The notes under the pieces were generated by a model. That model searched no databases, was not told the DNA's origin, and saw only the letters and a program-made list of their open reading frames with translations. Of a stretch of DNA of 24,992 bases, positions 4,951-22,408 are shown piece by piece; position 1 is the stretch's first letter; each line of letters starts with the position of its first letter. Location of the stretch: positions 1 to 24,992 of IMG/VR virus record IMGVR_UViG_3300032011_002015; one strand, 5' to 3'. Both the position numbers and the translations under genes were made by a program. This stretch comes from a virus.

Positions 4951-5061
4951 ATACATAGTGTTAAACATCTACTTTCTTTTTATTTTGAAAAAGTGAAGAG
5001 AAAGTGATTCCTGACGACGATAATTATGATAGGATTAAAGAGTCAAGTTAATACTTCTTAC
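4951..5061 (+). promoter_or_regulatory. Intergenic regulatory cassette, copy 1 of 5
   Basis: Non-coding block after the helicase gene, shared with copies near 11013, 16724, 19055 and 21755. It has an A/T hairpin (CTTTCTTTTT, ATTTTG, AAAAAGTGAAG) and a conserved 3' core, GACGATAA then TTAAAGAGTCAAGTTAATA and TTCTTAC. This copy has TATGAT in the variable centre, a plausible -10, but no -35 is conserved across copies. The placement at operon boundaries, about 27 bases before a start codon, supports a promoter role. The exact promoter hexamers are undecided. Confidence 0.7.
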
Positions 5062-5088
5062 AAATTAAAAACTTAAGGATCAAATCAA

Positions 5089-5343
5089 ATGTCAAACGAA
5101 CTTCAAAATCTGGTACAAGAATCCAACCTATACGATTTTGCACGCAAAGGTCGAGCATCTCAATTTTCAAATGAATTCAATCGTCGATTGGTTCACGCTC
5201 TGAGTGCAAGAGCACCGAAGGTTGTTGAATTTCTACAAGCTGTTTTAGATAATCGTGAAGTCAAGGAAGTTTGGCCTCCACAAGTTCTTTCGGTCTACGA
5301 AAACTTACTTGAGCACGCCAAATCAGAATTACTTTTTGCTTAA
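5089..5343 (+). CDS. Small hypothetical protein (84 aa), first gene after cassette 1
   Basis: Not recognised. Mostly helical composition with several hydrophobic positions (VVEFLQAVLDN, VLSVYENLLEHAKSELLF), no membrane segment, no cysteines and no signal peptide. It follows cassette 1 with leader TTAAGGATCAA, so it should be the first and probably most strongly translated product of the operon. Tiny proteins in this position recur after every cassette, which is typical of phage early genes that act on host functions. That role is inferred only from position. The reading frame is closed by TAA and followed by a TTCAAAATC-type leader. Confidence 0.7.
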   Translation: MSNELQNLVQESNLYDFARKGRASQFSNEFNRRLVHALSARAPKVVEFLQAVLDNREVKEVWPPQVLSVYENLLEHAKSELLFA

Positions 5344-5359
5344 TTACAAAAATCATCAT

Positions 5360-5385
5360 TTCAAAATCTTAATCACAAGGATCAA
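5360..5385 (+). promoter_or_regulatory. TTCAAAATC / ACAAGGATCAA leader before the SprT-like gene
   Basis: The leader TTCAAAATCTTAATC followed by ACAAGGATCAA is identical over 26 bases to those at 11354 and 19383. It contains the Shine-Dalgarno AAGGA, and ACAAGGAT equals the ACARGGAU core of the CsrA binding consensus. Confidence 0.65.
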
Positions 5386-5389
5386 TAAG

Positions 5390-5932
5390 ATGAAATTATG
5401 GGAAAAAGAACAAAAGGTCAAATCGTGGGTCAAAGAAGCCTTCGATGCCAACGGAATCGAGCAAAGATGTTACAGCGTCTTGATTAGATTCTCAAAGAAG
5501 ATGACCAGATGTGCTGGTACTGCGGAATGGCGACCGGCAAATTGGTATATCAATCCAGACGATGGTGATTATTTTATCACAATGTCCGATCCACTATGGG
5601 ATAGGTGTGACGATGCCGAACGGCGAAACACAGCAATCCATGAAGCGTGTCATGTCCTTGATCATATCATCAATGGCGATATGGATGGGCACGGTGAGGG
5701 ATGGCAAGCTTGTATGCGAGCTGTTGGTCTGCGTCCAATACGGACTCACAAGATTGACCGCACTGGATTAAAAAGAGTTGTCGCAGCCCACTGCCCATGC
5801 GGAGCCGTCAAAGAGATTGGTAAAATCCGAGCACAGAGAATGGGAGTCAAAAACTATTTTTGCAAAAAGTGCAACGGGGACATCAAACTCGGTGAATGTG
5901 TAAGTCAAAAGAACCATCCAATCTGGGGATAA
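5390..5932 (+). CDS. SprT-like zinc metalloprotein
   Basis: A 180-residue protein with a zincin motif H84-E-A-C-H88 and a downstream HGEGW at 101-105 that can give the third zinc ligand, as in SprT/Spartan-type domains. A C-terminal zinc ribbon follows: CPCG (C135, C137) and CKKC (C158, C161). SprT-like proteins in cells cut proteins crosslinked to DNA; in phages the function is unknown and the domain is common. The start at 5390 is chosen over a longer frame because it directly follows a conserved leader with AAGGATCAA, and the longer frame would run through the preceding gene. The third residue of the core motif, C rather than L or F, is unremarkable. Confidence 0.8.
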   Translation: MKLWEKEQKVKSWVKEAFDANGIEQRCYSVLIRFSKKMTRCAGTAEWRPANWYINPDDGDYFITMSDPLWDRCDDAERRNTAIHEACHVLDHIINGDMDGHGEGWQACMRAVGLRPIRTHKIDRTGLKRVVAAHCPCGAVKEIGKIRAQRMGVKNYFCKKCNGDIKLGECVSQKNHPIWG

Positions 5933-6132: not shown

Positions 6133-6258
6133 ATGCACCCGTTATTAACGCCAGATGAGATCACCGCTTTCAAAGCACTAGGATTATTAATAGCAATCGC
6201 ATTTATATTTGCATTGCGACATCATGTCAAATCAAATTCAGTTCACTACGATAATTAA
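6133..6258 (+). CDS. Tiny single-span membrane protein (41 aa)
   Basis: The start is preceded by TAGGAGAC, a strong Shine-Dalgarno that overlaps the previous stop. The product has a short polar N-terminus, one hydrophobic span (ALGLLIAIAFIFAL, about residues 15-28) followed by RHHVK, predicting an N-out, C-in inner-membrane peptide. No family is recognised. Its 3' end contains the sequence CACTACGATAATTAATCGGAAGGA, which resembles the second leader family seen before other genes and may serve the csrA gene downstream. It could be a superinfection or lysis-related peptide, without evidence either way. Confidence 0.55.
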   Translation: MHPLLTPDEITAFKALGLLIAIAFIFALRHHVKSNSVHYDN

Positions 6259-6292
6259 TCGGAAGGATTCTGAAGAAGTCAAGGAGGACTTT

Positions 6293-6484
6293 ATGCTTAC
6301 ACTATCCAGAAAAGAACGTGAAGGAGTAGTCATCGAAGTAGATGGCGTGAAGATTGCGGAGGTTTTTATCTCCAAGATCAAATTCCCAAACAGGGTTTTG
6401 CTATCTTTTGATGCAGACAAGGAAGTCAATTTTATTAGGAAAGAAATCCATGAAGATAACCGATCAAAACTTACGAACAGCTAA
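6293..6484 (+). CDS. csrA: CsrA-like RNA-binding translational regulator
   Basis: CsrA is a dimeric RNA-binding protein that blocks or activates translation by binding GGA motifs at ribosome-binding sites. This 63-residue protein starts MLTLSRKEREGVVIEVDG and matches CsrA in length and pattern: L4 and R6 of the first strand are kept, and FIRKEI (R49) corresponds to VHREEI with the key R44 of the E. coli protein. The start is fixed by AAGGAGG five bases upstream and by the canonical ML start; a longer frame from 6224 would add residues absent in the family. It overlaps the lipoprotein gene by 35 bases. Its likely targets are phage leaders with ACAAGGAT, host mRNAs, or both. Confidence 0.85.
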   Translation: MLTLSRKEREGVVIEVDGVKIAEVFISKIKFPNRVLLSFDADKEVNFIRKEIHEDNRSKLTNS

Positions 6485-6638
6485 TGCGACAATGCTCTGC
6501 ATCATCGCCTTTACCGTCGGCCTAATTTGCGCCTTTACAGGTTGTGCTACCACCTTCCGAATGGAGACGACCACCAAATCAATTAATCCCGGATACGAGA
6601 CATTGTCAAATGATAATTACCTTACCACAAGCCATTAA
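6450..6638 (+). CDS. Small lipoprotein
   Basis: A 62-residue product with a basic N-region, a hydrophobic stretch (MLCIIAFTVGLICAF, about residues 15-29) and a lipobox-like AFTGC with the cysteine at residue 32. After it comes a short polar tail rich in Thr, Ser and Asn. The pattern suggests a lipid-anchored envelope peptide. The start lies inside csrA with AGGAAAG upstream. Phage lipoproteins often block superinfection or act in lysis; nothing in the sequence tells which. The first 14 residues before the hydrophobic part are long for a signal peptide, so a later start is possible. Confidence 0.6.
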   Translation: MKITDQNLRTANATMLCIIAFTVGLICAFTGCATTFRMETTTKSINPGYETLSNDNYLTTSH

Positions 6639-7146
6639 GCTATTACGTGATCTTGAACTTCCTGTTTCAGACAAATGGTCGGTCGATAGAATCGCACAGA
6701 AGTTAGATTGGATTCCATACTGTGTTAATGAGCAGACAGACGCTAAAGAATCCCAAGAACTCTTGAATGAATTACTTATTGCAATCGCAGATGACAACGA
6801 TATAATCATTCAGAGTGATCAGGGAGATGCGATGATTGAGCCGGTACTCGCCGAGGAGAGTTTCTTTAACAAGTTGGTACAGAAGCACTTCTTAAACAAA
6901 GACGGTACTCGCAGAAAAGCCGGTGTGATTCAGTCGATAGTTGAATTCCTTTGCGGTGCCTCAGAAGAATCTCCCATCAATAAACAAGATTTAGTCAAAA
7001 AGATAATCGCTAGGTTCCCAAGAAAGACAGAGCGGTCTATCATGTCCAGTATCAACTCACAAGTACCGACTCAGCTCAGAGTTATGAGACAAATCAAAGT
7101 CAGTACAAGCAGAGAAGGATACTGGATAGCAGAGGAGAATCAATAA
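6610..7146 (+). CDS. Hypothetical protein with C-terminal winged-helix-like region (178 aa)
   Basis: Not assigned to a family. The N-terminal half is helical and acidic. The C-terminal 75 residues (RKAGVIQSIVEFLCGA, INKQDLVKKIIARF, ERSIMSSINSQVPTQLRVMRQI, ending GYWIAEENQ) look like a winged-helix domain with a final wing strand. The start is uncertain: ATG at 6610 avoids deep overlap with the lipoprotein gene, while GTG at 6544 would add 22 residues that are unlike a normal N-terminus. Its stop overlaps the following glycosyltransferase start (TAATG). A DNA-binding regulator or a partner of the glycosyltransferase are both possible. Confidence 0.6.
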   Translation: MIITLPQAIKLLRDLELPVSDKWSVDRIAQKLDWIPYCVNEQTDAKESQELLNELLIAIADDNDIIIQSDQGDAMIEPVLAEESFFNKLVQKHFLNKDGTRRKAGVIQSIVEFLCGASEESPINKQDLVKKIIARFPRKTERSIMSSINSQVPTQLRVMRQIKVSTSREGYWIAEENQ

Positions 7147-8288
7147 TGGATCCGATAGATGATTTGGCTTCACGACGACCGACTCGTGAGAAGAAAAGTG
7201 GACTGTTCGATATAGAACCAGACTGGCGTGAGCACTGGTGGGGAATGCCCGACTATACGATGAATGATGCCCAGCCGTCGCAAAGAATTACTATGAACTT
7301 TATGACGTATGAAGATGTCCTAGAGTTTGCTGAAAAGATAGGAGCAAAGGTAACCAACAGGACCAACTCACTATTCTATCCTCCACAGGATCAACTAAGG
7401 GGTGAGTTCCAATACGAAGGTCCGAAAATAGATAGCCGATACCCTATCTGTATCCCATCCAAAGGACGACACGATGTCCAGACAACTGGTAAAGTTCTTG
7501 ACTCATTGGGAGTCAACTATAAGTTCTTTGTTGAGGAGACAGAAGGTGATTTATACAAAGAGCATCTCGGAGAAGATAAAGTTGAAGTCATGCCCTTTCA
7601 CGACTTAGGAGAAGGCTCTATCCCAGCAAGAAACTTTATCTGGGAATGGGCGAAAGAAAGAGGGCATAAACGACATTGGATAGTGGACGATAATATCACC
7701 GACTTTTCCCGAACTCATATGAATCGAAGATTGATTGTGAGAGGTGGGGGATTCTTTAATGCGATGGAGGACTTTGCTGATCGTTATGAAAACATTGCTT
7801 TGGCCGGACCTCATAGTCGAGGCTTTGTCGCAGACCGAGACCCAAGAAAAGCAGCCTTCATATTCAACAGCCGAGTTTACTCCTGCATCCTAATCGATAC
7901 AGACCTAGATTATAGGTGGCGAGGGCGATACAATGAGGACACAGACCTATCTTTGCGTATGCTAAAGGATGGATTGTGCACTGCTTTATTCGCAGCCTTT
8001 ACGATGCAGAAGTTCACGACCCATAAGGGGACTGGAAAAGATAACGGCGGCATGAAGGGAGGCAATACGGATCACGTATACAATGATGAGGACTACCGAA
8101 TGTCCTTTGCCAAGTCCCTACAGGAGCAGCATCCTGATGTCGTTAATATTATCTGGAGATGGGGTCGATGGCACCACCACGTGGATTATACTCCGTTCAA
8201 GAAAAACAAGCCGGTACTGCGTGCTGGAGTGACTAAAACGAAGGAAACAAATAACTACGGAATGGAATTGGTAAGGAAGAATGGATAA
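7146..8288 (+). CDS. TET-associated-type glycosyltransferase, copy 1
   Basis: A GT-A type glycosyltransferase resembling the family found beside TET/JBP or hydroxymethyl-base systems in phages, where it adds sugars to modified DNA bases. Residues 98-310 carry YPICIPSKGR, then IPARNFIWEW, the metal-binding stretch WIVDDNI (178-184), VYSCILIDTD, YNEDTDLSLRML (262-272) and a final GGNTD. A separate N-terminal part (about 25-85, DWREHWWGMPDYT and LEFAEKIGAKVTNRTNSLFYPP) looks like an additional small domain. A second, shorter copy lies at 24377 without this part. The acceptor could be DNA; no base-hydroxylating enzyme is visible in the window. Confidence 0.75.
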   Translation: MDPIDDLASRRPTREKKSGLFDIEPDWREHWWGMPDYTMNDAQPSQRITMNFMTYEDVLEFAEKIGAKVTNRTNSLFYPPQDQLRGEFQYEGPKIDSRYPICIPSKGRHDVQTTGKVLDSLGVNYKFFVEETEGDLYKEHLGEDKVEVMPFHDLGEGSIPARNFIWEWAKERGHKRHWIVDDNITDFSRTHMNRRLIVRGGGFFNAMEDFADRYENIALAGPHSRGFVADRDPRKAAFIFNSRVYSCILIDTDLDYRWRGRYNEDTDLSLRMLKDGLCTALFAAFTMQKFTTHKGTGKDNGGMKGGNTDHVYNDEDYRMSFAKSLQEQHPDVVNIIWRWGRWHHHVDYTPFKKNKPVLRAGVTKTKETNNYGMELVRKNG

Positions 8289-8748
8289 GAATCGAACCAT
8301 CAGAAAAAACACAGTTGCGTTTGCTCCCATCTCGATAATGATAAGGGAGTTTGACAGCGTCGAAAACAAATACGGCAAACTATCAGCAATGCAATTAAGA
8401 ACAAAGCTAAAAATCGTAGGCAACTATGATGAGCTGACACATAAGCTGCTGCATTTATTTGAGAAGGACTATATTCAAGATGAGTTCATTAAGAATTATG
8501 ATAACAAAGTATTCATAGAATATGATGACGAAACCCTAGAGGAGTTTATCCATCTCGGAGGCAGAGATGTTTGTGATGTCATATCAACAGAAAAAGCCAA
8601 TGGCGATTCTATTGTTCGTGAGATGTTTATATTCTTGAATCAAAAAATCAGAACGGTAACCAACTCAAGGTGCCAGCTGGAGACGTTAAAAATATCAGGG
8701 CATGAATTTGCCTTTTACCACACACATGAAGTTATAGGTGCAAAATGA
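8281..8748 (+). CDS. Hypothetical protein (155 aa)
   Basis: Not recognised. The start overlaps the end of the glycosyltransferase gene and its stop overlaps the clamp gene start (AATGA), so it is translated between them. The product is mixed helix and strand with acidic patches (IEYDDETLEEFIHL) and no cysteine motif or membrane segment. Lower GC than its neighbours is visible by eye, mainly in third positions. It may have a role tied to the clamp, but there is no direct evidence. Confidence 0.6.
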   Translation: MDKNRTIRKNTVAFAPISIMIREFDSVENKYGKLSAMQLRTKLKIVGNYDELTHKLLHLFEKDYIQDEFIKNYDNKVFIEYDDETLEEFIHLGGRDVCDVISTEKANGDSIVREMFIFLNQKIRTVTNSRCQLETLKISGHEFAFYHTHEVIGAK

Positions 8749-9764
8749 AAGTAAATAAAAATGATTTGTTATCTCAGTTGGAGATGGCCAGCTCTGGACT
8801 TAGCAAGCGTGAAATGATTAAGCAATCAGATTGTTTCGTATTCATAGATGGAAGACTTCACACATACAACGAAGAAGTTAGTTGCTCTTGCGATTCTGTT
8901 CTTGAGAACTTTACTGCCGCTGTTAAAGCAGAGCCTTTGTTATCCGTTTTAAGAAAGATGACGGAAGAAAACATCGAGATAAAATTCACCGATAGTGAAT
9001 TCATCATCAGAGGGAAGAGGCGTGAAGCCGGCATCCGATTGGAGAAAGAAATAGAACTCCCTCTTGAGACGGTAGAAAAACCAGAAGACTGGAAAAGTTT
9101 ATCGTCGGAGTTTGATCAAGCCGTTCAGCTTGTTTCTCAATGCACGAGTACAGATGAAACTCAATTCAGATTAACGTGCGTCCATATTACTCCCAATGAG
9201 CTGGAGGCATCAGATAGATTTCAGGCATCCCGATATAAGCTGAATACGGAGATAGAATCAAAAGCACTGATCCGTAAAGATACTTTGAAAAGCATTGTTG
9301 ATTTAGGCATGAATGAGATATCTGAGACGGACGATTGGTTGCATTTTAGGAACCCCGCTGGTCTAGTTATCTCGTGTCGAAGATACTCCACCGAAGAAAA
9401 TGAATTCCCAGACCTTGAGAGCATCTATGATTTTGAGGGACAGAAAACCAAACTACCCGCTGGCATAACAGAAGCTGTGGAGAAGGCAGAAATATTCTCA
9501 TCTGATAACCTAGACTCGGACATGATTATGGTCCAGCTAAAGCCTGGTAAGTTGCAGATTAAAGGTGAGGGGAATCTTGGATGGTTTACTGAGTTTCACG
9601 ATGTGAACTATACAGGTTCTGACCTAAGGTTTAGAATCGCACCAAAGATGCTCATAGAAATATCCAATCAACATGATGAATGTGAATTAAATGAAAGTTT
9701 AATCAAAGTTGAGAACGATAATTTTGTATATGTAACTTTACTGAGTATTGCGGAAGATGAGTAA
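8745..9764 (+). CDS. dnaN: DnaN-like beta sliding clamp
   Basis: Ring-shaped processivity factor that tethers the polymerase to DNA. The 339-residue length is slightly shorter than the usual 365-380 of bacterial DnaN. Clamp-like features are the repeated three-domain pattern, the central segment around LTCVHITPNELEASDRFQASRYKL, which matches the DnaN pattern of domain 2 (T.GI.l...EATDRYRLA), and RRYSTEENEFPDLESIY, which matches the RLIEGEFPNY-type motif. The loader is encoded downstream at 13176 and the family A polymerase at 11797. The assignment rests on these motifs and context; domains 1 and 3 are more divergent. Confidence 0.75.
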   Translation: MKVNKNDLLSQLEMASSGLSKREMIKQSDCFVFIDGRLHTYNEEVSCSCDSVLENFTAAVKAEPLLSVLRKMTEENIEIKFTDSEFIIRGKRREAGIRLEKEIELPLETVEKPEDWKSLSSEFDQAVQLVSQCTSTDETQFRLTCVHITPNELEASDRFQASRYKLNTEIESKALIRKDTLKSIVDLGMNEISETDDWLHFRNPAGLVISCRRYSTEENEFPDLESIYDFEGQKTKLPAGITEAVEKAEIFSSDNLDSDMIMVQLKPGKLQIKGEGNLGWFTEFHDVNYTGSDLRFRIAPKMLIEISNQHDECELNESLIKVENDNFVYVTLLSIAEDE

Positions 9765-10983
9765 CGGATTCTTCAATAGTTCCTTAACGGAATCTAAAAA
9801 GCCTCCAAGTCTCCTTCCTAAATGCGGAGCCTGTAAACTTGATCTGAAATGTAATTCACCAAAACTGAATTATATTGGAGAAGGCAAAAAGAAGATTCTC
9901 ATCATTTCGGAATCGCCATCCAAAAGTGATGATGAGAATGGGAGACTTTACTCCACCCCACGCCCTTCTTTGCCTCTTGAATCAGCATTAAGAAAATCAG
10001 GTGTCAGATTAGAACGTGACTGCTGGCTTACTACCTCGCTGATATGTTACAGCGGTAAAGAGCCAACGTCGGATCAGATAAGCCACTGCCGACCCAATCT
10101 GATTAAGACAATCAAGCAGTTAAAGCCAGACGTTATCATCCCTATGGGTAGGTCTGGCATAGCTTCTCTGATACCGCATTTATGGAAGGAGCAAATTGGA
10201 GCTGCTTCAAGATGGTATGGTTTTCAGATACCATCGCAGAAGATAAACGCATGGGTCTGTCCGACTTATTCGCCAATCTATGTTTATCAATTAAGCAAGT
10301 CCAACGATGCCAAAAAAGAAGTTCTCAAGATTCACTTTGAGAAGCAAATCAAAGCAGCTCTTGCTCTAAAGGGAAAGCCGTACGATGAGGTCCCTGATTA
10401 CAACAAAGACATCGAAATCATAGACAAGCCATCGCAAGCAGCTAGGATTATCCGTAAGATGATCCAGAAGGGCGGTACAGTGGCTTTTGATTATGAGACG
10501 GATAGAATAAAGCCAGACAGCGACAGCTCTAGGATCGTCTCCTGTGGCATCTGCTGGAATGATAAGAAGACTATTGCCTATGACTGGAAGGGTGAAGCTA
10601 TCGAAGCCACCCGTGAGCTTCTTCATTCTCCGCTTCCTAAGATTGCGTGCAACTTAAAGTTTGAAGATAGATGGACAAGAAAGCATCTCGGCAAGCGTGT
10701 TCGGAATTGGTACTGGGACACGATGCTCGCCGCTCATGTTATCGACCAAAGACCTAGGGTATCCAGTATCAAGTTCCAGTCGTTTGTTCTGCTCGGAGCT
10801 CCGAGTTATGACGAACACATTGGCAAGTATCTTGCTGGCGATAAAGACAAAGAGTCCAACAACATCCATCTCATAGACCGTAAAGAGTTGCTGACCTATA
10901 ATGCTATGGATGCTATTCTGGAATACAAGGTTGCTATGAAACAGATGGACATTCTGGGTTATCCTAAACCCAATTCTCAATAA
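9757..10983 (+). CDS. Uracil-glycosylase-like domain fused to DEDDy 3'-5' exonuclease (Pol I proofreading domain)
   Basis: Two domains are seen. Residues 20-180 resemble family 4 uracil-DNA glycosylases: C23-x2-C26, C97 and C111 match the iron-sulphur ligands, with core TTSLICYSG and IIPMGRSG. The catalytic GEAPG motif reads SESPS (51-55) and the HPS-type motif reads CPTYSP (168-173), so glycosylase activity is doubtful. Residues 240-400 are a Pol I type exonuclease: FDYET (D245, E247), NLKFED (D304) and YNAMDA (Y381, D385), all catalytic positions kept. The polymerase domain is a separate gene at 11797. ATG at 9757 overlaps the clamp stop by 8 bases. Exonuclease role firm, glycosylase fold probable. 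Confidence 0.82.
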   Translation: MSNGFFNSSLTESKKPPSLLPKCGACKLDLKCNSPKLNYIGEGKKKILIISESPSKSDDENGRLYSTPRPSLPLESALRKSGVRLERDCWLTTSLICYSGKEPTSDQISHCRPNLIKTIKQLKPDVIIPMGRSGIASLIPHLWKEQIGAASRWYGFQIPSQKINAWVCPTYSPIYVYQLSKSNDAKKEVLKIHFEKQIKAALALKGKPYDEVPDYNKDIEIIDKPSQAARIIRKMIQKGGTVAFDYETDRIKPDSDSSRIVSCGICWNDKKTIAYDWKGEAIEATRELLHSPLPKIACNLKFEDRWTRKHLGKRVRNWYWDTMLAAHVIDQRPRVSSIKFQSFVLLGAPSYDEHIGKYLAGDKDKESNNIHLIDRKELLTYNAMDAILEYKVAMKQMDILGYPKPNSQ

Positions 10984-11012: not shown

Positions 11013-11126
11013 TACATACATAGCATATATCTCATACTTTCTTTTTATTTTGAAAAAGTGAAGAGAAAGTGGTTCCTGACGACGATAACTATGTTAGGAT
11101 TAAAGAGTCAAGTTAATAGTTCTTAC
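11013..11126 (+). promoter_or_regulatory. Intergenic regulatory cassette, copy 2 of 5
   Basis: Nearly identical to copy 1 from the A/T hairpin through GACGACGATAACTATGTTAGG and the conserved TTAAAGAGTCAAGTTAATA core. TATGTT is the likeliest -10. It separates the exonuclease gene from the small gene at 11144, whose ATG follows 17 bases later with an ACAAGGATCAA leader. Confidence 0.7.
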
Positions 11127-11143
11127 CAACAAGGATCAATCAG

Positions 11144-11350
11144 ATGTCTTTCAACGAAACAAAAAGCCGAGTTTACGAAGTCAAAACTACCAACGGAAAT
11201 TTCCGATTTTTCGCAGACGATAAAGAACTTGCAGAAGATCACATTTGGACAATGGAAAGTTTCCCAAACTTCAAAGCAACTTCAAAAGTTAAATTCATCG
11301 GATGGGCTTTTGAAAGTGACGACCTAGACAAAATGTTCATGTCAGTCTAA
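11144..11350 (+). CDS. Small hypothetical protein (68 aa), first gene after cassette 2
   Basis: Not recognised. Strand-rich pattern (RVYEVKTTNGNFRFFADD, KVKFIGWAFESDDLDKMF), no membrane segment and no cysteines. The start is set by leader ACAAGGATCAATCAG directly after cassette 2, an arrangement shared with the genes at 16856 and 21895. A longer frame that opens at 11058 lies within the cassette and is rejected. The product should be made early and strongly if the cassette is a promoter. Confidence 0.7.
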   Translation: MSFNETKSRVYEVKTTNGNFRFFADDKELAEDHIWTMESFPNFKATSKVKFIGWAFESDDLDKMFMSV

Positions 11351-11353
11351 TAA

Positions 11354-11379
11354 TTCAAAATCTTAATCACAAGGATCAA
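11354..11379 (+). promoter_or_regulatory. TTCAAAATC / ACAAGGATCAA leader before the 66-aa gene
   Basis: Identical over 26 bases to the leader at 5360: TTCAAAATCTTAATC followed by ACAAGGATCAA. It supplies the ribosome-binding site for the gene at 11384 and carries a candidate CsrA site. Confidence 0.65.
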
Positions 11380-11383
11380 ATCA

Positions 11384-11584
11384 ATGTACGTTTCATTCAG
11401 CCTAAAAAAGACAGACGACGGCAACTTTATGCGACTGATAGATATGGACGATAATGTCCTAGTGAGTCGCAAGCTCAGCGAGCCAAAACGATTATCTGGC
11501 AGCCGAATGAACTACGGAAATATTTCACGGATTCGGGCCGAGTTGGCAAGAATCGCCAAGAACAAAAACTGGACCATCTTGTAA
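11384..11584 (+). CDS. Small hypothetical protein (66 aa)
   Basis: Not recognised. Starts with a strand pair (MYVSFSLKKTDDGNFMRLIDMDDNVLVSRKL, given here in pieces: YVSFSLKKT, FMRLIDMDD, VLVSRKL) and ends with a basic helix (RIRAELARIAKNKNW). No cysteine or membrane segment. The last codon is followed almost at once by the structured RNA region that precedes DNA polymerase. The basic helix may bind nucleic acid, an inference only. Confidence 0.65.
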   Translation: MYVSFSLKKTDDGNFMRLIDMDDNVLVSRKLSEPKRLSGSRMNYGNISRIRAELARIAKNKNWTIL

Positions 11585-11605: not shown

Positions 11606-11786
11606 CCTCGGAACGATAATAATTCGATCCGTGTGGCACCTGAGCAAGTGTAAAAACTGCGTACCGCGATTGCGGGCGGGCGAAAGCCAGCTGATCCCAT
11701 GTTCCTTGATCCTTTCATGGTCGATTAGAGTTGCTGCTGAATTAACTTGACAGTATGCACAGCAATGCCCGCAATCGCATTTTTTA
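11606..11786 (+). ncRNA. Multi-branched structured RNA ending in an intrinsic-terminator stem, before DNA polymerase
   Basis: A 12-bp stem, GCGATTGCGGGC (11666-11677) with GCCCGCAATCGC (11767-11778), is followed by six T, the form of an intrinsic terminator. It encloses three further hairpins: GGC-GAAA-GCC (11679-11688, GNRA loop), CCATG/CATGG (11697-11720) and TTGCTG/CAGCAA (11731-11765). Upstream lies an imperfect hairpin CGGA/TCCG (11609-11631) and the 16-mer GGCACCTGAGCAAGTG, which recurs at 16656. The polymerase ATG is 11 bases after the T-run. Either an independent small RNA or an attenuator; stems were found by eye. Confidence 0.6.
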
Positions 11787-11796
11787 TGAGACAATT

Positions 11797-13179
11797 ATGA
11801 AGCCAGCAACTCCAGACGCATATCGACTTCTCCATCACGGCTGTATCGCACTCAGCAATGTCGAGACCAACGGAATGAGAATTGACGTTGAGTATCTTGA
11901 GAAGACATCCAAACAGCTCTACTCCAGAATCAAAGATATGGAGGAGGATCTCAAGTCAGATAAGGTATTCAAAATCTGGCGACGACAGTACGGAGAAAGA
12001 ACCAATCTAGGAAGTCGTGAGCAACTAGGTAAAATCCTATTTGATGTATTAGGTCACGAGTGTCTTCACAGAACTCCCACCGGCAGACCCAAGATGGATG
12101 CGACAACTATGGGGGCTATTGACGAACCGTTTGTGAAAACATTCGTTGAGATGGAGCAACTCAAGAAGATTAAAAACACATTCCTTTCTGGGATACAGAA
12201 GCAGACTTGCGATGGGTTTATTCACCCGTCATTTAATCTTCATACGGTCCAAACTTATAGGAGTTCTTCCGACTCTCCTAACTTCCAGAACTTTCCTATT
12301 CGTGACCGTAAAGCTGGAGAGCTGATTCGGAGATGTTTCATCCCTCGTGATGGGCATCGAATAGTGGAGATTGACTACACCGGTCTTGAGGTTCGCATAG
12401 CTGCGTGCTACCATAAGGACCCCACTATGCTTGAGTATATTAAAGATGAATCCAAAGATATGCACAGAGACATGGCAGCTGAATGTTTTAAGTGTGAGCC
12501 AGAGCAAGTCTCCAAGGAGCTTCGGTATTGTGGCAAGAACATGTTTGTGTTCCCTCAGTTCTACGGCGATTTTTATGTGAACAATGCCAGAGCATTATGG
12601 GAATCCATAGATGCTATGAATCACGAAGTAGATGGCGTGCCTATGAAGGAGCATCTACAGCAGAACGGAATACACGAGTTAGGTCTTTGCGAACCTCAGG
12701 AGAAGCCACGACCAGGAACTTTTGAGAAGCATCTACAGCAAGTTGAGAAAAGATTTTGGAATGAGAGATTCCCGACCTACGATAAATGGAAGAAAGAGTG
12801 GTACAGAAAATATCTAAAGCAAGGTGGATTCAATACGCTGACTGGCTTTAAGATTGAAGGACTGCTAGGACGTAATGACGTAATAAATTATCCAGTCCAA
12901 GGATCTGCTTTTCACTGCCTCCTGTGGTCTTTAATCCAGTTAAATAAGTGGCTGGTAAAGAATAAGAAAAGGACCAAGATAGTTGGGCAGATTCATGACT
13001 CAATCGTATCTGACGTTCACGAGGATGAGCTTGATGAATTTCTACAAGTTGCTAAAACGATAATGACTCAGAAGATAAGAAATAAATTCAAATGGATAAA
13101 CGTACCGCTTGACGTTGAAGCCGAGATAACTCCAATCAACGGTTCGTGGTTTGAGAAAAAGGAAGTTGAAATTAAATGA
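11797..13179 (+). CDS. polA: Family A DNA polymerase, polymerase domain only
   Basis: Replicative phage polymerase of the Pol I family, 460 residues, lacking the exonuclease domain, which is fused to a glycosylase-like domain upstream. Motif A is EIDYTGLEVR (D193), motif B runs R243...K247...Y256-G257 with an extra residue compared with E. coli, QGSA at 368-371 is kept, and motif C is QIHDS (D401). Usual residues are Q or S in motif A where G stands here and HDE where HDS stands. Both metal-binding aspartates remain. ATG at 11797 is chosen because 11755 lies inside the terminator stem; GAGAC supplies a weak Shine-Dalgarno. The stop overlaps the clamp-loader ATG. Confidence 0.9.
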   Translation: MKPATPDAYRLLHHGCIALSNVETNGMRIDVEYLEKTSKQLYSRIKDMEEDLKSDKVFKIWRRQYGERTNLGSREQLGKILFDVLGHECLHRTPTGRPKMDATTMGAIDEPFVKTFVEMEQLKKIKNTFLSGIQKQTCDGFIHPSFNLHTVQTYRSSSDSPNFQNFPIRDRKAGELIRRCFIPRDGHRIVEIDYTGLEVRIAACYHKDPTMLEYIKDESKDMHRDMAAECFKCEPEQVSKELRYCGKNMFVFPQFYGDFYVNNARALWESIDAMNHEVDGVPMKEHLQQNGIHELGLCEPQEKPRPGTFEKHLQQVEKRFWNERFPTYDKWKKEWYRKYLKQGGFNTLTGFKIEGLLGRNDVINYPVQGSAFHCLLWSLIQLNKWLVKNKKRTKIVGQIHDSIVSDVHEDELDEFLQVAKTIMTQKIRNKFKWINVPLDVEAEITPINGSWFEKKEVEIK

Positions 13180-14109: not shown

Positions 14110-14146
14110 TCAAAATCAACTCACTACGATAATAATAAAAAAGGAG
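14110..14146 (+). promoter_or_regulatory. CGATAATAATAAAAAAGGAG leader before the UvsY-like gene
   Basis: TCAAAATCAACTCACTACGATAAT continues into AATAAAAAAGGAG. Close relatives precede genes at 17641, 20134 and 22409. It holds a strong Shine-Dalgarno AAGGAG, and GATAAT is a possible -10, but no -35 is seen. Confidence 0.5.
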
Positions 14147-14152
14147 AATCAA

Positions 14153-14617
14153 ATGGAATCAAGCATACTTGACATCGATGAATACAATTTAGACCTGGAG
14201 TGGAAACGACAGCCAACGCTGTATCTTGAAATGGCGACTGAACTTGCCGACGCTAAAGGCGACCACGATGCCGCCAAGAGTGAGCTTGAGATTGTTAAAG
14301 CAAAACTCAGTATGAAGATTAGAACGAACCCAGATGTTTTCGGTCTGGATAAGGTCACAGAATCTACTGTCAATCATGCTCTTGTTACCCAAAAGGAATA
14401 CGCTATCGCACAGGCAGAAGTGATTAAAGCAAAACATAAGGTAGATTTACTTCAAGCTGTCGTAGTTGCTCTTGAGCATCGTAAGAGGGCACTAGAAAGT
14501 TTAGTCAGTCTCCACGGACAGAAATACTTTTCAGAGCCTTTGACCAGAACAGAAACTGATCAAGAAGCCCTTGAAGATGCAACCAAAACTAGAATTAGAA
14601 CAATGAGAAATTCTTAA
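14153..14617 (+). CDS. Candidate UvsY-like recombination mediator
   Basis: A 154-residue, highly helical protein. The region LEWKRQPTLYLEMATELADAKGDHDAAKSEL... is followed by DKVTESTVNHALVTQKEY and two long amphipathic helices to LVSLHGQKYF. This layout, a helical core with a basic KAKLSMKIR segment, resembles UvsY-type mediators that load the recombinase onto SSB-coated DNA. Its place directly before a gp32-like SSB and a UvsX/RecA-like recombinase strongly supports this. The sequence match is only by pattern, so another coiled-coil accessory protein is possible. A strong AAGGAG precedes the start. Confidence 0.5.
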   Translation: MESSILDIDEYNLDLEWKRQPTLYLEMATELADAKGDHDAAKSELEIVKAKLSMKIRTNPDVFGLDKVTESTVNHALVTQKEYAIAQAEVIKAKHKVDLLQAVVVALEHRKRALESLVSLHGQKYFSEPLTRTETDQEALEDATKTRIRTMRNS

Positions 14618-16723: not shown

Positions 16724-16838
16724 TATACATATAGTGGTTAAATAACCACTTTCTTTTTATTTTGAAAAAGTGAAGATTTACTTCTGTACATTGACGATAA
16801 GTCTGTTAGGCTTAAAGAGTCAAGTTAATAGTTCTTAA
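16724..16838 (+). promoter_or_regulatory. Intergenic regulatory cassette, copy 3 of 5
   Basis: Contains AGTGGTTA-AA-TAACCACT (16733-16750), an inverted repeat, then the A/T hairpin and the core TTGACGATAAGTCTGTTAGG leading to TTAAAGAGTCAAGTTAATA. TTGACG is followed after 16 bases by TAAAGA, a weak promoter-like pair. The 213-base gap from 16643 to 16855 holds this cassette, the 16-mer GGCACCTGAGCAAGTG at 16656 and no gene. Confidence 0.7.
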
Positions 16839-16855
16839 CAACAAGGATCAATCAG

Positions 16856-17182
16856 ATGTCAAACGCAACAATCAAATCAGAGCAACTCACTAAAGCAGAT
16901 TTCAAAGTCATCTTAGATGTACTGAACGTATTCGATACAGAAACTGCTCCCATCGCAGAAATGAAAACGGATGAATTTGAAAGTGAAGTCCTAGTTGCTT
17001 TCAAAAAGGTTCTGGACATCTGCAATGACAAAGAATCTGAACTTACTGAAGAAGATTTCAAAGTCATCTTAGATGTACTGAACGTGTTCTACCCCGAAGA
17101 CTGCAGCCACCCTAAGATGAAGGATGATGAGTTCTTTGAACAAGTTAGCGTTGCTTTCAGAAAGGTTCTGGAAGTAGTTTAA
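16856..17182 (+). CDS. Duplicated-repeat small acidic protein (108 aa), first gene after cassette 3
   Basis: Not recognised, but made of two tandem copies of a roughly 50-residue unit: DFKVILDVLNVF occurs at residues 15-26 and again at 67-78, each followed by an acidic loop and a helix (VLVAFKKVLDI and VSVAFRKVLEV). The DNA of the repeated block differs at only one base over 36, showing a recent duplication with a period of 156 bases. It is all helical and acidic. The start follows the ACAAGGATCAATCAG leader. Possibly a small host-inhibitor, as inferred from position after the cassette. Confidence 0.7.
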   Translation: MSNATIKSEQLTKADFKVILDVLNVFDTETAPIAEMKTDEFESEVLVAFKKVLDICNDKESELTEEDFKVILDVLNVFYPEDCSHPKMKDDEFFEQVSVAFRKVLEVV

Positions 17183-17360: not shown

Positions 17361-17388
17361 GGCTGGCATCCCAAACTGCCACCTTTTT
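17361..17388 (+). terminator. Intrinsic-terminator hairpin before the cysteine-rich small gene
   Basis: Stem GG-TGGCA (one bulged C) with TGCCA-CC, loop TCCCAAAC, followed by TTTTT. It ends 27 bases before the next ATG, with a ribosome-binding leader in between and no room for a full promoter. Confidence 0.7.
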
Positions 17389-17390
17389 AA

Positions 17391-17410
17391 TTCCCAATCA
17401 CAAGGATCAA
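17391..17410 (+). promoter_or_regulatory. ACAAGGATCAA leader before the CxxC gene
   Basis: Short form of the leader, CAATC followed by ACAAGGATCAA, right after the terminator at 17361. It holds the Shine-Dalgarno and a candidate CsrA site. Confidence 0.6.
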
Positions 17411-17415
17411 ATCAA

Positions 17416-17598: not shown

Positions 17599-17635
17599 TT
17601 CAAAATCATTTCAACTCGATAATAATAAAAAGGAT
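17599..17635 (+). promoter_or_regulatory. CTCGATAATAATAAAAAGGAT leader
   Basis: TTCAAAATCATTTCAACTCGATAATAATAAAAAGGAT, given here as a joined description of TTCAAAATCATT, CAACTCGATAAT and AATAAAAAGGAT, is shared almost exactly with 20090. It provides the ribosome-binding site for the gene at 17641. Confidence 0.5.
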
Positions 17636-17640
17636 GAAAT

Positions 17641-17877
17641 ATGGATCAGCCAAAATTCAATATTATCAAAGTCACTAAACAACATATCAACGAACAAATC
17701 GCAAGCACAGAATACACCGAGGAGGATTATATCTTAGGTGAGTTTGACATCGAGGTCGTTCACGTCGACGGGACCAAGTCCTATTACGGCAGCTATCGAA
17801 CCAAGTCAGAGGCTTATGAAGCAACCAAAGGTATGAGAAAAGCAAAAAATCTTTTTAGATACGGAGATCAATCGTGA
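17641..17877 (+). CDS. Small hypothetical protein (78 aa)
   Basis: Not recognised. A strand-helix mix with FDIEVVHVDGTKSYYGSYRT in the middle and a basic C-terminal helix AYEATKGMRKAKNLF. No cysteine or membrane segment. The stop overlaps the next ATG by one base (TGATG), so the two are coupled translationally. Confidence 0.65.
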   Translation: MDQPKFNIIKVTKQHINEQIASTEYTEEDYILGEFDIEVVHVDGTKSYYGSYRTKSEAYEATKGMRKAKNLFRYGDQS

Positions 17878-19070: not shown

Positions 19071-19170
19071 AGAATAACTACTTTCTTTTTATTTCTAAAA
19101 AATGAAGATTTACTTCTGTACATTGACGATAACTGTGTTAGGCTTAAAGAGTCAAGTTAATACTTCTTAC
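19055..19170 (+). promoter_or_regulatory. Intergenic regulatory cassette, copy 4 of 5
   Basis: Has the A/T hairpin (CTTTCTTTTT with a changed 3' arm AAAAAATGAAG), then TTGACGATAACTGTGTTAGG and the conserved TTAAAGAGTCAAGTTAATA core. It is close to copy 3 for 45 bases 3' of the hairpin. The downstream gene starts with GTG at 19188. Confidence 0.7.
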
Positions 19171-19187
19171 GAACAAGGAACAAACAA

Positions 19188-19370
19188 GTGACCAACGACC
19201 TAATCAAAACTCGAAAACGCCTAAACCGACTTCAAGCTGAAAAGAACTTAATGAAGTCAAACGGAATGAACATCGAGCAGGTCAGTTCCGAAATCAAAAC
19301 CCTATGGAATAAACTTGACCGAATGGTCTCAAATCGCAGAACAGCCAATCGTATCGGCCGTTCAATCTAA
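19188..19370 (+). CDS. Small basic helical protein (60 aa), GTG start, after cassette 4
   Basis: Not recognised. Lysine- and arginine-rich helices (TRKRLNRLQAEKNLMKSNG, then IEQVSSEIKTLWNKLDRMVSNRRTANRIGRS) suggest a coiled coil or a nucleic-acid contact. The start is GTG, with the leader ACAAGGAACAA differing at one base from the usual form. No cysteine or membrane segment. Confidence 0.6.
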   Translation: MTNDLIKTRKRLNRLQAEKNLMKSNGMNIEQVSSEIKTLWNKLDRMVSNRRTANRIGRSI

Positions 19371-19382
19371 GTAAAATCACTT

Positions 19383-19408
19383 TTCAAAATCTTAATCACA
19401 AGGATCAA
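19383..19408 (+). promoter_or_regulatory. TTCAAAATC / ACAAGGATCAA leader
   Basis: Identical over 26 bases to those at 5360 and 11354. It lies directly upstream of the gene at 19413 and contains the Shine-Dalgarno AAGGA and a candidate CsrA site. Confidence 0.65.
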
Positions 19409-19412
19409 AATT

Positions 19413-20045
19413 ATGAGTTACGGCGAATGGAAAACACGAGGAAAAAATTGGGCTCACCTAGAAATCGACAGCCCTTGGAATTGGACTTTCGACAAATGGG
19501 AGCATCACGAATATGACTCGGCTGAAAAAGCAGGACGGGCGATGAACTCTTTGCTACGACAGTGGCGAACATTCGACCTCCATCACATTGACGGTCTCAG
19601 CTGGGAATCAAATCCAACAGCTGCCAAATTCATAGCTTATCAAGCAGGTGTCAAAGGCAGAATGATTGTCATGATTCCAAACGGAGAACATCAAGAATAC
19701 TTTGCCTTTGACAAAGAGTATTACCAGTCGGCTATGAATGACTTTGCCGAACGCCGACTCAAGGAGCACAAAGAATCCTACAAGGTTCTTAATCACGAGC
19801 CTACGGAAGATCAGAATCCACAGCTTGACTTGAAGCATGAGTTGATCAGAATGTTTGAAGCTATGATGAAGACCGACTCCTTCATTGACTTTGACTATAC
19901 AAAGACTGCTTGGCACTCATGGGTCCTGGCGATGAACCACGGCGAGACCCACAGGGCTGATTACTTTATGAACCTGGCGCAAGGCACCCCGAGTTCAGTC
20001 GAAGTTAGGAATCCAGTCGAAGTTAGGAATCACCCAATCTGGTAA
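19413..20045 (+). CDS. Hypothetical protein (210 aa) with a duplicated C-terminus
   Basis: Not recognised. Tryptophan-rich N-terminus (GEWKTRGKNWAHLEIDSPWNW), a central strand segment (GRMIVMIPNGEHQEYFAF) and a helical C-terminal half. The last residues contain VEVRNPVEVRNHPIW, caused by a perfect tandem 18-bp repeat CAGTCGAAGTTAGGAATC at 19996-20031. The final NHPIW also ends the SprT-like protein (KNHPIWG). It is likely part of the same transcript as the 60-aa gene. Confidence 0.6.
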   Translation: MSYGEWKTRGKNWAHLEIDSPWNWTFDKWEHHEYDSAEKAGRAMNSLLRQWRTFDLHHIDGLSWESNPTAAKFIAYQAGVKGRMIVMIPNGEHQEYFAFDKEYYQSAMNDFAERRLKEHKESYKVLNHEPTEDQNPQLDLKHELIRMFEAMMKTDSFIDFDYTKTAWHSWVLAMNHGETHRADYFMNLAQGTPSSVEVRNPVEVRNHPIW

Positions 20046-20089: not shown

Positions 20090-20126
20090 TTCAAAATCAT
20101 CTCAACTCGATAATAATAAAAAGGAT
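20090..20126 (+). promoter_or_regulatory. CTCGATAATAATAAAAAGGAT leader before the 87-aa gene
   Basis: Nearly the same as the element at 17599: TTCAAAATCAT, CTCAACTCGATAAT and AATAAAAAGGATCAA. It follows a short intergenic stretch with a weak hairpin GAGCA/TGCTC (20063-20082). Confidence 0.5.
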
Positions 20127-20133
20127 CAATCCG

Positions 20134-20397
20134 ATGAAATATAAAAAAGAGCAATTTGAAAAAGACTACAAGCAAGCCTTAAATCTCATATCAGAATTAG
20201 ACTACCTTCTGGACACTATCATCATTGATGTCCAATACGACCATATCCCAAACGGAGATGTGGCGGAGGAGATACGACCTCTACAGATGCGACTTCTTCA
20301 GAAACTCGCCAACAAGGCACCGAACTCTTTTCAAAGGACTCTTGATGAGGTTGTTTTTAACCTAAAAGAAATCAAGGAAAAGAAATGCGAAGTTTAA
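20134..20397 (+). CDS. Small hypothetical helical protein (87 aa)
   Basis: Not recognised. Charged helices at both ends (KKEQFEKDYKQALNLISEL; DEVVFNLKEIKEKK) around IIIDVQYDHIPNGDVAEEIRPL. No membrane span. Its last 13 bases overlap the start of the exported nuclease-like gene, so the two are coupled. Confidence 0.6.
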   Translation: MKYKKEQFEKDYKQALNLISELDYLLDTIIIDVQYDHIPNGDVAEEIRPLQMRLLQKLANKAPNSFQRTLDEVVFNLKEIKEKKCEV

Positions 20398-20738
20398 TCC
20401 TTGTCTCGGTCTTTCTCTGCTCCGCCACATTCGCTGGCGAAGTGGAGGAGACCATGAGACTGGCTCCCAAATATGAAGCTAAAGCTGAAGTTGTCTTATG
20501 GGATATGACTCGTGTCGACTTGCTCAATGATGAGTATGCGATAGAGGTCGAGTGGCCGAAGAAATGGGCAGAAGCTATTGGTCAATCCCTTTACTACTCC
20601 ATTGTGACGAACAAGAAGCCTGCCATCATCTTATTGATTAAAGATAAGAAATCAGAATCAAGATACATTTACAGACTGCAAACTGTAGCAGCTAAACACG
20701 GAATCAAAGTTTACTTGGAGGAAGTATCCGATGAATAA
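20385..20738 (+). CDS. Exported PD-(D/E)XK nuclease-like small protein
   Basis: The N-terminus MRSLILVSVFLCSATFAGE is a typical signal peptide with an A-x-A cleavage site near residue 17, so the mature protein should leave the cytoplasm. The mature part has VDLLND (D45), AIEVEW (E54, E56), KKW (K59, K60) and GQSLYY (Q67-x3-Y71), matching a compact PD-(D/E)XK fold with the RecB-type QxxxY motif. Small exported proteins of this kind occur in bacteria; the activity is untested as far as I know. It follows a small gene by overlap and precedes an epimerase-like gene by overlap, with GGAGGAAG as Shine-Dalgarno for the latter. Confidence 0.6.
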   Translation: MRSLILVSVFLCSATFAGEVEETMRLAPKYEAKAEVVLWDMTRVDLLNDEYAIEVEWPKKWAEAIGQSLYYSIVTNKKPAIILLIKDKKSESRYIYRLQTVAAKHGIKVYLEEVSDE

Positions 20739-21753
20739 GAATATTATAGTGACAGGAGGAGCAGGGTTTCTCGGCTCTCATCTTTGTGAAGTCTTAGTGA
20801 ATAACGGAGACAATGTTATTTGTGTCGACAACTGTGTGTCTGGAAGCAAGTATAATGTGGAGCATCTTTTTAGCAGCGGTCGTTTTAACTTCATCAAACA
20901 TGATATTCAAAAACCTTTACACAGTCAACTTCAGGAGTTGATTCCCAATAAGAGAGGTGTTAAAGCAGAGGACCGAAAGATTAGACAGATACACGAAATC
21001 TATAATCTTGCCTGTCCAGCATCTCCTCCTGCCTATCAACGCAAGCCGGTTGATACTATGAAGACATCGGTCCAAGGTTCGATAAACATGCTTGAACTTG
21101 CTTACAAGTACGGAGCTAAAATCCTACAAGCATCCACAAGTGAGATATATGGAGAGCCTTTGAATCACCCGCAGCAAGAAGAGGACTGGGGAAACGTAAA
21201 CCCTATAGGAATCCGATCATGCTATGACGTAGGGAAGCGGGCCGCTGAATGCCTATTCAACGATTACTACAGATTGTACCAGATAGAATCCAAGATTGTC
21301 CGAATCTTCAACACGTACGGACCTAGAATGGATCAGTTTGACGGTCGAGTTATTTCCACGTTCATTCGACAAGCACTTCTCGGAGAGGACATTACGATAT
21401 TCGGAGATGGTACGCAGACTAGGTCTTTCTGTTACCGAGATGACCTAATCAAGGGCATGATTAAAGTGATGGACCAAGTAAAGCATCCGCAGTGGCCGGT
21501 AAACTTAGGGAATCCGAAAGAGATCACAATCAAAAAAGCAGCGGAGCTGATTATCGAAATGACGGACAGTAAAAGCTCCATTGTGTATCGAGACCTCCCA
21601 GAGGATGATCCGACAAGAAGAAAGCCGAACATTGGCCGTGCGAAGGAGTTGGGATGGGAACCTTGCGTGGACATCAGAGAAGGTCTTAGAAAGACCATCC
21701 GTTACTTTGAGACCATAGGTTTATTCAGAGAACATGTCCCATATGCATTATGA
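20731..21753 (+). CDS. UDP-glucuronate decarboxylase-like NAD-dependent sugar enzyme
   Basis: Extended short-chain dehydrogenase acting on a nucleotide sugar. Visible are the NAD motif GGAGFLG (9-15), STSEIYG (135-141) and the catalytic Y165-x3-K169. ACPASPPAYQ, PVDTMKTS, NTYGPRM, DGRVISTFI and GDGTQTRSFCY are closer to UDP-xylose synthases (UXS) than to GalE-type epimerases. If so it converts UDP-glucuronate to UDP-xylose, a possible donor for the two glycosyltransferases. An insert of about 20 residues lies at 65-87 (ELIPNKRGVKAEDRK). Overlap with the upstream gene places it in the same operon; the substrate is inferred. Confidence 0.8.
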   Translation: MNKNIIVTGGAGFLGSHLCEVLVNNGDNVICVDNCVSGSKYNVEHLFSSGRFNFIKHDIQKPLHSQLQELIPNKRGVKAEDRKIRQIHEIYNLACPASPPAYQRKPVDTMKTSVQGSINMLELAYKYGAKILQASTSEIYGEPLNHPQQEEDWGNVNPIGIRSCYDVGKRAAECLFNDYYRLYQIESKIVRIFNTYGPRMDQFDGRVISTFIRQALLGEDITIFGDGTQTRSFCYRDDLIKGMIKVMDQVKHPQWPVNLGNPKEITIKKAAELIIEMTDSKSSIVYRDLPEDDPTRRKPNIGRAKELGWEPCVDIREGLRKTIRYFETIGLFREHVPYAL

Positions 21754-21774: not shown

Positions 21775-21878
21775 ATAGCTTCATTTATTTCTTTATTATT
21801 TTAATAAAATGAAGATTTAGGGGTTACTTGTGACGATAAACCTGTTAGGCTTAAAGAGTCAAGTTAATAGTTCTTACC
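21775..21878 (+). promoter_or_regulatory. Intergenic regulatory cassette, copy 5 of 5
   Basis: The A/T stem is here CTTCATTTATT with AATAAAATGAAG, which differs from the other copies yet still pairs, supporting a selected hairpin. Then follow GTGACGATAAACCTGTTAGG and the TTAAAGAGTCAAGTTAATA core. The next ATG is 17 bases downstream. Confidence 0.7.
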
Positions 21879-21894
21879 AACAAGGATCAATCAG

Positions 21895-22050
21895 ATGGCT
21901 CGCACAGTAGAAATCAAAAAGACTTCCACCAACGAAGCAAACATCAGCGACCGTACAATCAGCTACGACATCTATGTTGACGGAGCATACAAGGTGACAG
22001 TCAACGACATCATCGAAGCACTTCAGTTACAAGACAAATACCTAGCATAA
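21895..22050 (+). CDS. Mini-protein (51 aa), first gene after cassette 5
   Basis: ATG after an ACAAGGATCAATCAG leader identical to those at 11129 and 16841. The product, MARTVEIKKTSTNEANISDR followed by TISYDIYVDGAYKVTVNDII and a short helix, is strand-rich and unrecognised, with no cysteine or membrane segment. Both the leader and the position after a cassette support it as a gene even though it is short. Confidence 0.6.
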   Translation: MARTVEIKKTSTNEANISDRTISYDIYVDGAYKVTVNDIIEALQLQDKYLA

Positions 22051-22300: not shown

Positions 22301-22382
22301 CTGGGTAGCCGTCCGCCTTCACCTTAGACTCGATGGTGGTGATAGGTCTGGGGAGACCGATAAGGCGGGCGGTGCTTTTTCT
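22301..22382 (+). ncRNA. Three-way-junction RNA with terminator stem
   Basis: A 12-pair closing stem, GCCGTCCGCCTT (22308-22319) with AAGGCGGGCGGT (22362-22373, two G-T pairs), followed by GCTTTTT. Inside are two hairpins: CACC/GGTG (22320-22338) and GGTCT-GGGG-AGACC (22345-22358). It could be an elaborate terminator or a small structured RNA. The half-SMC gene starts 28 bases after the T-run. Confidence 0.6.
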
Positions 22383-22383
22383 A

Positions 22384-22408
22384 ATTCATCTCAACTCGAT
22401 AATACTAT
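22384..22408 (+). promoter_or_regulatory. CTCGATAATACTAT element before the half-SMC gene
   Basis: TTCATCTCAACTCGATAATACTAT runs directly into ATG, with no Shine-Dalgarno. It matches the CTCGATAAT family at 17599 and 20090 but lacks the AAAAAGGA segment, so it could be a promoter -10 giving a nearly leaderless mRNA. Confidence 0.4.

Follow-up and report, generated by a model that had tools for sequence, protein, structure and literature searches.

The window, by which we mean the whole 24,992-nucleotide stretch of viral DNA analysed here, carries all of its identified genes on the plus strand. Within it, a SNF2 helicase, a primase, a replication initiator, a DnaB-like helicase and a SprT-like metallopeptidase lie 5′ of a small cassette comprising, in order, a 41-residue membrane-like ORF, csrA, a lipoprotein-like ORF and a 178-residue ORF. 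The cassette is followed by a TET-associated glycosyltransferase, a sliding clamp, a UDG with exonuclease, a DNA polymerase and a clamp loader, and then by RecA, a PDDEXK nuclease, an NAD-dependent epimerase and SbcC- and SbcD-like proteins. The predicted products mark this neighbourhood as a cassette for phage replication and DNA modification. The csrA frame (6293–6484, +) encodes 63 residues, MLTLSRKEREGVVIEVDGVKIAEVFISKIKFPNRVLLSFDADKEVNFIRKEIHEDNRSKLTNS, and is preceded by AAGGAGG, which ends 5 bases 5′ of the ATG. The membrane-like ORF (6133–6258, +), recognized from its translation, sits just 5′ of csrA, is kept in a relative described below and belongs to the same small cassette. The preliminary description had proposed the 63-residue frame, its preceding AAGGAGG and a position within a phage replication region; re-reading of the sequence bore out the first two, and the neighbouring replication and DNA-modification genes support the third.

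The csrA product matched the Pfam profile PF02599 at 32.3 bits (E 9.9e-8), above the curated cut-off of 27, and the 25-kb virus record as a whole contains a single place that this profile matches. Scores against the NCBIfam profiles TIGR00202 (27.5 bits; equivalog cut-off 70.1) and NF002469 (23.4 bits; cut-off 73) fell below their thresholds, a phmmer search of PDB sequences returned no match at E ≤ 0.001, and PHROGs held no family for the product. On these profile scores, the protein is placed in the CsrA/RsmA family and is not classed as a CsrA equivalog, that is, as a protein with the same function as cellular CsrA. Since there was no phmmer match in the PDB and the NCBIfam scores were only weak, the window csrA is a divergent family member and was not copied recently from a familiar host csrA.

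Alignment with E. coli CsrA (33% identity) indicated that the RNA-contact residues L4, R6 and R49 are kept in the window protein, R49 standing where E. coli CsrA has R44; the numbering shifts on account of a β2–β3 turn that is four residues longer than in E. coli CsrA, and H43 is replaced by isoleucine. L4 and R44 are particularly critical for RNA binding by CsrA (PMC7652899). In a set of 24 viral CsrAs, L2, L4, R6, A41, R49 and E51 did not vary. AlphaFold2, run on the viral CsrA alignment, modelled the window monomer as three strands and a C-terminal helix (pLDDT 92.2, pTM 0.67). The top Foldseek matches of this model in the PDB were RsmE (2mfc, 2jpp), RsmA (7yr6) and CsrA (1y00), with TM scores of 0.46–0.63, a probability of 1.00 for 2mfc and 2jpp and a best E of 0.014, a modest value that we attribute to the small chain; of its five best matches in a viral library, four carried the name of a phage CsrA protein. 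The prediction thus recovered the CsrA monomer fold, and the protein presumably forms a homodimer. E. coli CsrA and Pseudomonas RsmA/RsmE have this fold, L4, R6, the R44 equivalent and small size in common with the window CsrA. The homology to CsrA previously suggested from the letters was therefore sustained by the profile search, and of the residues then singled out, L4 and R6 are present and the arginine of FIRKEI is residue 49, aligned with E. coli R44. A 63-residue frame could by itself arise randomly, but chance does not account for the match to the profile, for the predicted fold or for a 61% identical relative on a different contig.

In the csrA leader, GGA occurs at positions −32, −28, −10 and −7. 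The Shine-Dalgarno GGA is displayed in the hexaloop of a predicted hairpin, GAAGUC-AAGGAG-GACUUU (6275–6292, +; 5–6 bp stem, loop AAGGAG), which constitutes a candidate CsrA site; folded as an isolated 24-mer it reached −5.4 kcal/mol, and 5 of 200 shuffles were as stable. An AAGGA further upstream (6263–6267, +), whose GGA lies 18 nt 5′ of the Shine-Dalgarno GGA, is predicted to form a bridged pair with the latter, and its counterpart in the related contig L003, ATACAAGGAAGT, agrees with the CsrA consensus at 11 of 12 positions. The consensus of known CsrA sites is RUACARGGAUGU; in most of them a short hairpin carries the GGA in its loop, and a single dimer can span two sites separated by 10 to 63 nt (PMC7652899). 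In E. coli, CsrA acts as a repressor of the csrA mRNA via four leader sites, one of them over the Shine-Dalgarno sequence (PMC7652899), a placement that recurs in the window leader. Hexaloops of the form C-ARGGAN-G with at least three pairs, a pattern picked after viewing the sequence though in line with the published consensus, numbered three on the plus strand of the window against 0.54 expected from dinucleotide shuffles, two of the three being at csrA; L003 likewise held three, all at csrA, and the minus strands of both held none. Two observations count against reading the leader in this manner: GGA is present in any AGGAGG Shine-Dalgarno, and when full leader contexts are folded, the predicted minimum for L003 is not this hairpin. 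Longer leader stretches folded no more stably than shuffles. The exact leader string was found in no contig of the viral collection beyond the two that carry csrA, and Rfam and tRNA searches gave no match.

A second GGA pair, 17 nt apart, is located in the 3′ end of csrA, over the start of the overlapping lipoprotein-like ORF. Its first half is GAC-AAGGAA-GUC (6416–6427, +), a predicted CsrA site in the last third of csrA that is identical in L003, and its second half is AGGA (6437–6440, +), the putative Shine-Dalgarno sequence of the downstream ORF. This 62-residue ORF (6450–6638, +) overlaps the end of csrA, is about 50% identical in L003 and is predicted to be co-regulated; it encodes a hydrophobic segment followed by FTGC, from which a lipoprotein nature was judged by eye, and the part searched matched no Pfam family.

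We compared the window with its relatives. The csrA gene is identical in a second contig, L002, whereas L003, the only divergent csrA-carrying relative found and hence the one on which conservation of the GGA sites is based, retains both GGA pairs and the window's gene order from the 41-residue ORF through the clamp and polymerase. Its csrA is a 61% identical relative of the window gene, with just 55% identity over the whole protein, yet AGTCAAGGAGGACTTTATG and GATGCAGACAAGGAAGTCAATTTTAT are identical between the two, as are the loop and inner four pairs of the leader hairpin. In the 3′ half of csrA, the same codon is used at 16 of 18 shared residues, whereas the fraction for the full set of genes common to the pair is about 0.56 (binomial p 0.003), although other genes of this pair also hold similarly conserved 30-nt patches, which counts against a special status for this one.

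To compare viral csrA leaders at large, the 50 nt before viral csrA genes were set against leaders of other ORFs from the same loci, both sets being limited to leaders with a GGA no more than 20 nt from the start. Because the features had been chosen after seeing the window and L003, the fair and main version of this comparison omitted that pair, with thinning at 95% identity. Two GGAs 10–24 nt apart occurred in 29 of 71 csrA leaders and 91 of 448 others (p 0.0002), CARGGA in 15 of 71 and 30 of 448 (p 0.0003), and a GGA hexaloop in 6 of 71 and 10 of 448 (p 0.014), the contigs of these viral csrA loci including some that may be prophage or host DNA. With thinning at 80% and the pair still omitted, the corresponding p values were 0.024, 0.012 and 0.034; at 65%, with the pair included, the paired-GGA signal was no longer significant (p 0.11). 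Viral csrA leaders are thus modestly enriched for paired GGA, CARGGA and GGA hexaloops.

The best explanation of the locus, to which we assign an even chance, is a phage translational repressor of the CsrA/RsmA family that covers GGA-containing ribosome-binding sites and so limits itself and the overlapping ORF. According to this model, CsrA would bind the hairpin displaying its own Shine-Dalgarno sequence and bridge from there to the GGA 18 nt upstream, which would restrain its own level; bridging of the second GGA pair would block the overlapping lipoprotein-like ORF. An analogous case is iraD, which CsrA represses by translational coupling, its sites covering the start of one ORF that in turn overlaps the following ORF (PMC5574718); in contrast, the window case is predicted from sequence only, and its upstream ORF is csrA itself. 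The preliminary description had suggested that the phage redirects host or own translation; of these, the placement of GGA sites on the csrA ribosome-binding site and the downstream ORF start, together with their retention in L003, favours a role on the phage's own transcript. These conserved predicted sites speak against the foremost alternative, that CsrA acts mainly by reprogramming the host. It would then supplement the host's own CsrA, or compete with it, on host mRNAs or CsrB-type RNAs and tilt metabolism, motility or defence towards the infection. That scenario is possible, if clearly less probable, and may coexist with self-regulation: with the contact residues kept, host GGA sites could be bound, csrA is widespread in phages, and host Rsm controls CRISPR-Cas systems in Serratia (PMC8450108). 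We also propose, tentatively and with more doubt than for the repressor model, that viral CsrAs could act as self-contained circuits combining repression of their own mRNA, by way of a conserved Shine-Dalgarno displayed in a loop, with timing of a downstream membrane-associated phage protein from GGA sites within the end of the csrA coding sequence, the gene being kept for phage-internal timing and not for host control.

CsrA could further be imagined to regulate many phage genes via their leaders, given that ACAAGGATC, close to the CsrA core ACARGGAU, occurs in the leaders of at least seven window genes. In most of those leaders that were folded, however, the GGA lay in the stem of a hairpin covering the Shine-Dalgarno sequence and not in its loop, and the exact ACAAGGATC motif is absent from the csrA-carrying L003; for these two reasons we do not accept them as CsrA sites for now and regard such a phage-wide regulon as improbable.

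Among 50 records searched, most of them found through the glycosyltransferase, csrA was present only in L002, L003 and an unrelated huge phage (LR756511), and none was seen in a third polymerase relative (55%). Absence from the other relatives would suit a passenger ("moron") gene that plays no role in this phage, but it is weak evidence because many records are fragmentary, and the contact residues and sites were kept though the protein diverged between the window and L003, making that account very unlikely. Searches of bacterial and archaeal genome contigs with the CsrA alignment and with the DNA polymerase found no relative.

CsrA genes in phages are not new in themselves, and the part that goes further here is the predicted self-regulatory RNA anatomy. 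Thirty csrA-carrying phages were tabulated in 2020 (PMC7366521); we found matches to E. coli CsrA in 85 records of a GenBank phage collection, one of them labelled a Salmonella assembly, and in the viral collection 175 stretches code for a protein related to a huge-phage CsrA. As in the window, the csrA genes described in phages lie in tailed-phage genomes and are of unproven function (PMC7366521, PMC9144972). The csrA of Burkholderia phage JC1 has been described as a moron gene (PMC9144972); the window csrA differs from it in its predicted self-binding sites. A virion-carried CsrA delivered into the host, for which JC1 offers a precedent in that one peptide of its CsrA was detected in virions, is scarcely credible here, as the JC1 authors do not consider this evidence definitive (PMC9144972) and the JC1 gene belongs to a structural module, between portal and capsid genes, whereas the window csrA lies among replication and DNA-modification genes.

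Similar in form are the long-turn CsrAs that huge phages encode (LR756511, L109 to L138). These are only 27–39% identical to the window CsrA; like it, they have a longer β2–β3 turn and no longer carry the HREE motif at the R44 strand. Paired GGA is also found in several of their leaders, but their gene context differs. Five records of 79–527 kb (L109, L118, L119, L125 and L135) contain two or three csrA genes each, usually one canonical and one long-turn copy, 6–13 kb apart and facing each other. Whether plasmids and phages need their CsrA proteins is a question that calls for loss-of-function tests (PMC7366521), and no functional test of a phage CsrA was found in the literature searched. With a conserved target predicted on the transcript of the phage itself, the role of phage CsrA can be tested without knowing the host.

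The window also contains several families of repeated leaders. An intergenic module of 136 nt is present in five copies (4964–5099, 11029–11164, 16741–16876, 19073–19208 and 21780–21915), 64–86% identical to the reference copy and each 5′ of a small ORF; its end, TTAAAGAGTCAAGTTAATA.TTCTTA.CAACAAGGATCAATCAG-ATG, is nearly invariant and can be folded over the Shine-Dalgarno sequence, and the module resembles a promoter or leader that the phage carries in several copies. Two further leader types precede other genes, one containing TTCAAAATCTTAATCACAAGGATCAA (5349–5396, 11343–11390, 17380–17411 and 19372–19419) and one containing TCAACTCGATAATAATAAAAAGGATCAA (14110–14159, 17600–17649, 20091–20140 and 22378–22407), and a block related to them, CACTACGATAATTAA, precedes csrA. 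In the window, separate ORFs encode the UDG/exonuclease part and the polymerase part (9748–10983 and 11755–13179), with a repeat module and small ORFs between them, unlike in the related contig L198, where the two ORFs overlap by 4 nt (7784–10416). The glycosyltransferase (7146–8288; PF20691, 139 bits) suggests that the phage DNA is glycosylated and modified. Finally, the 340-residue NAD-dependent sugar epimerase/dehydratase among the replication genes (20731–21753; PF01370, 171 bits) is a possible auxiliary metabolic gene.
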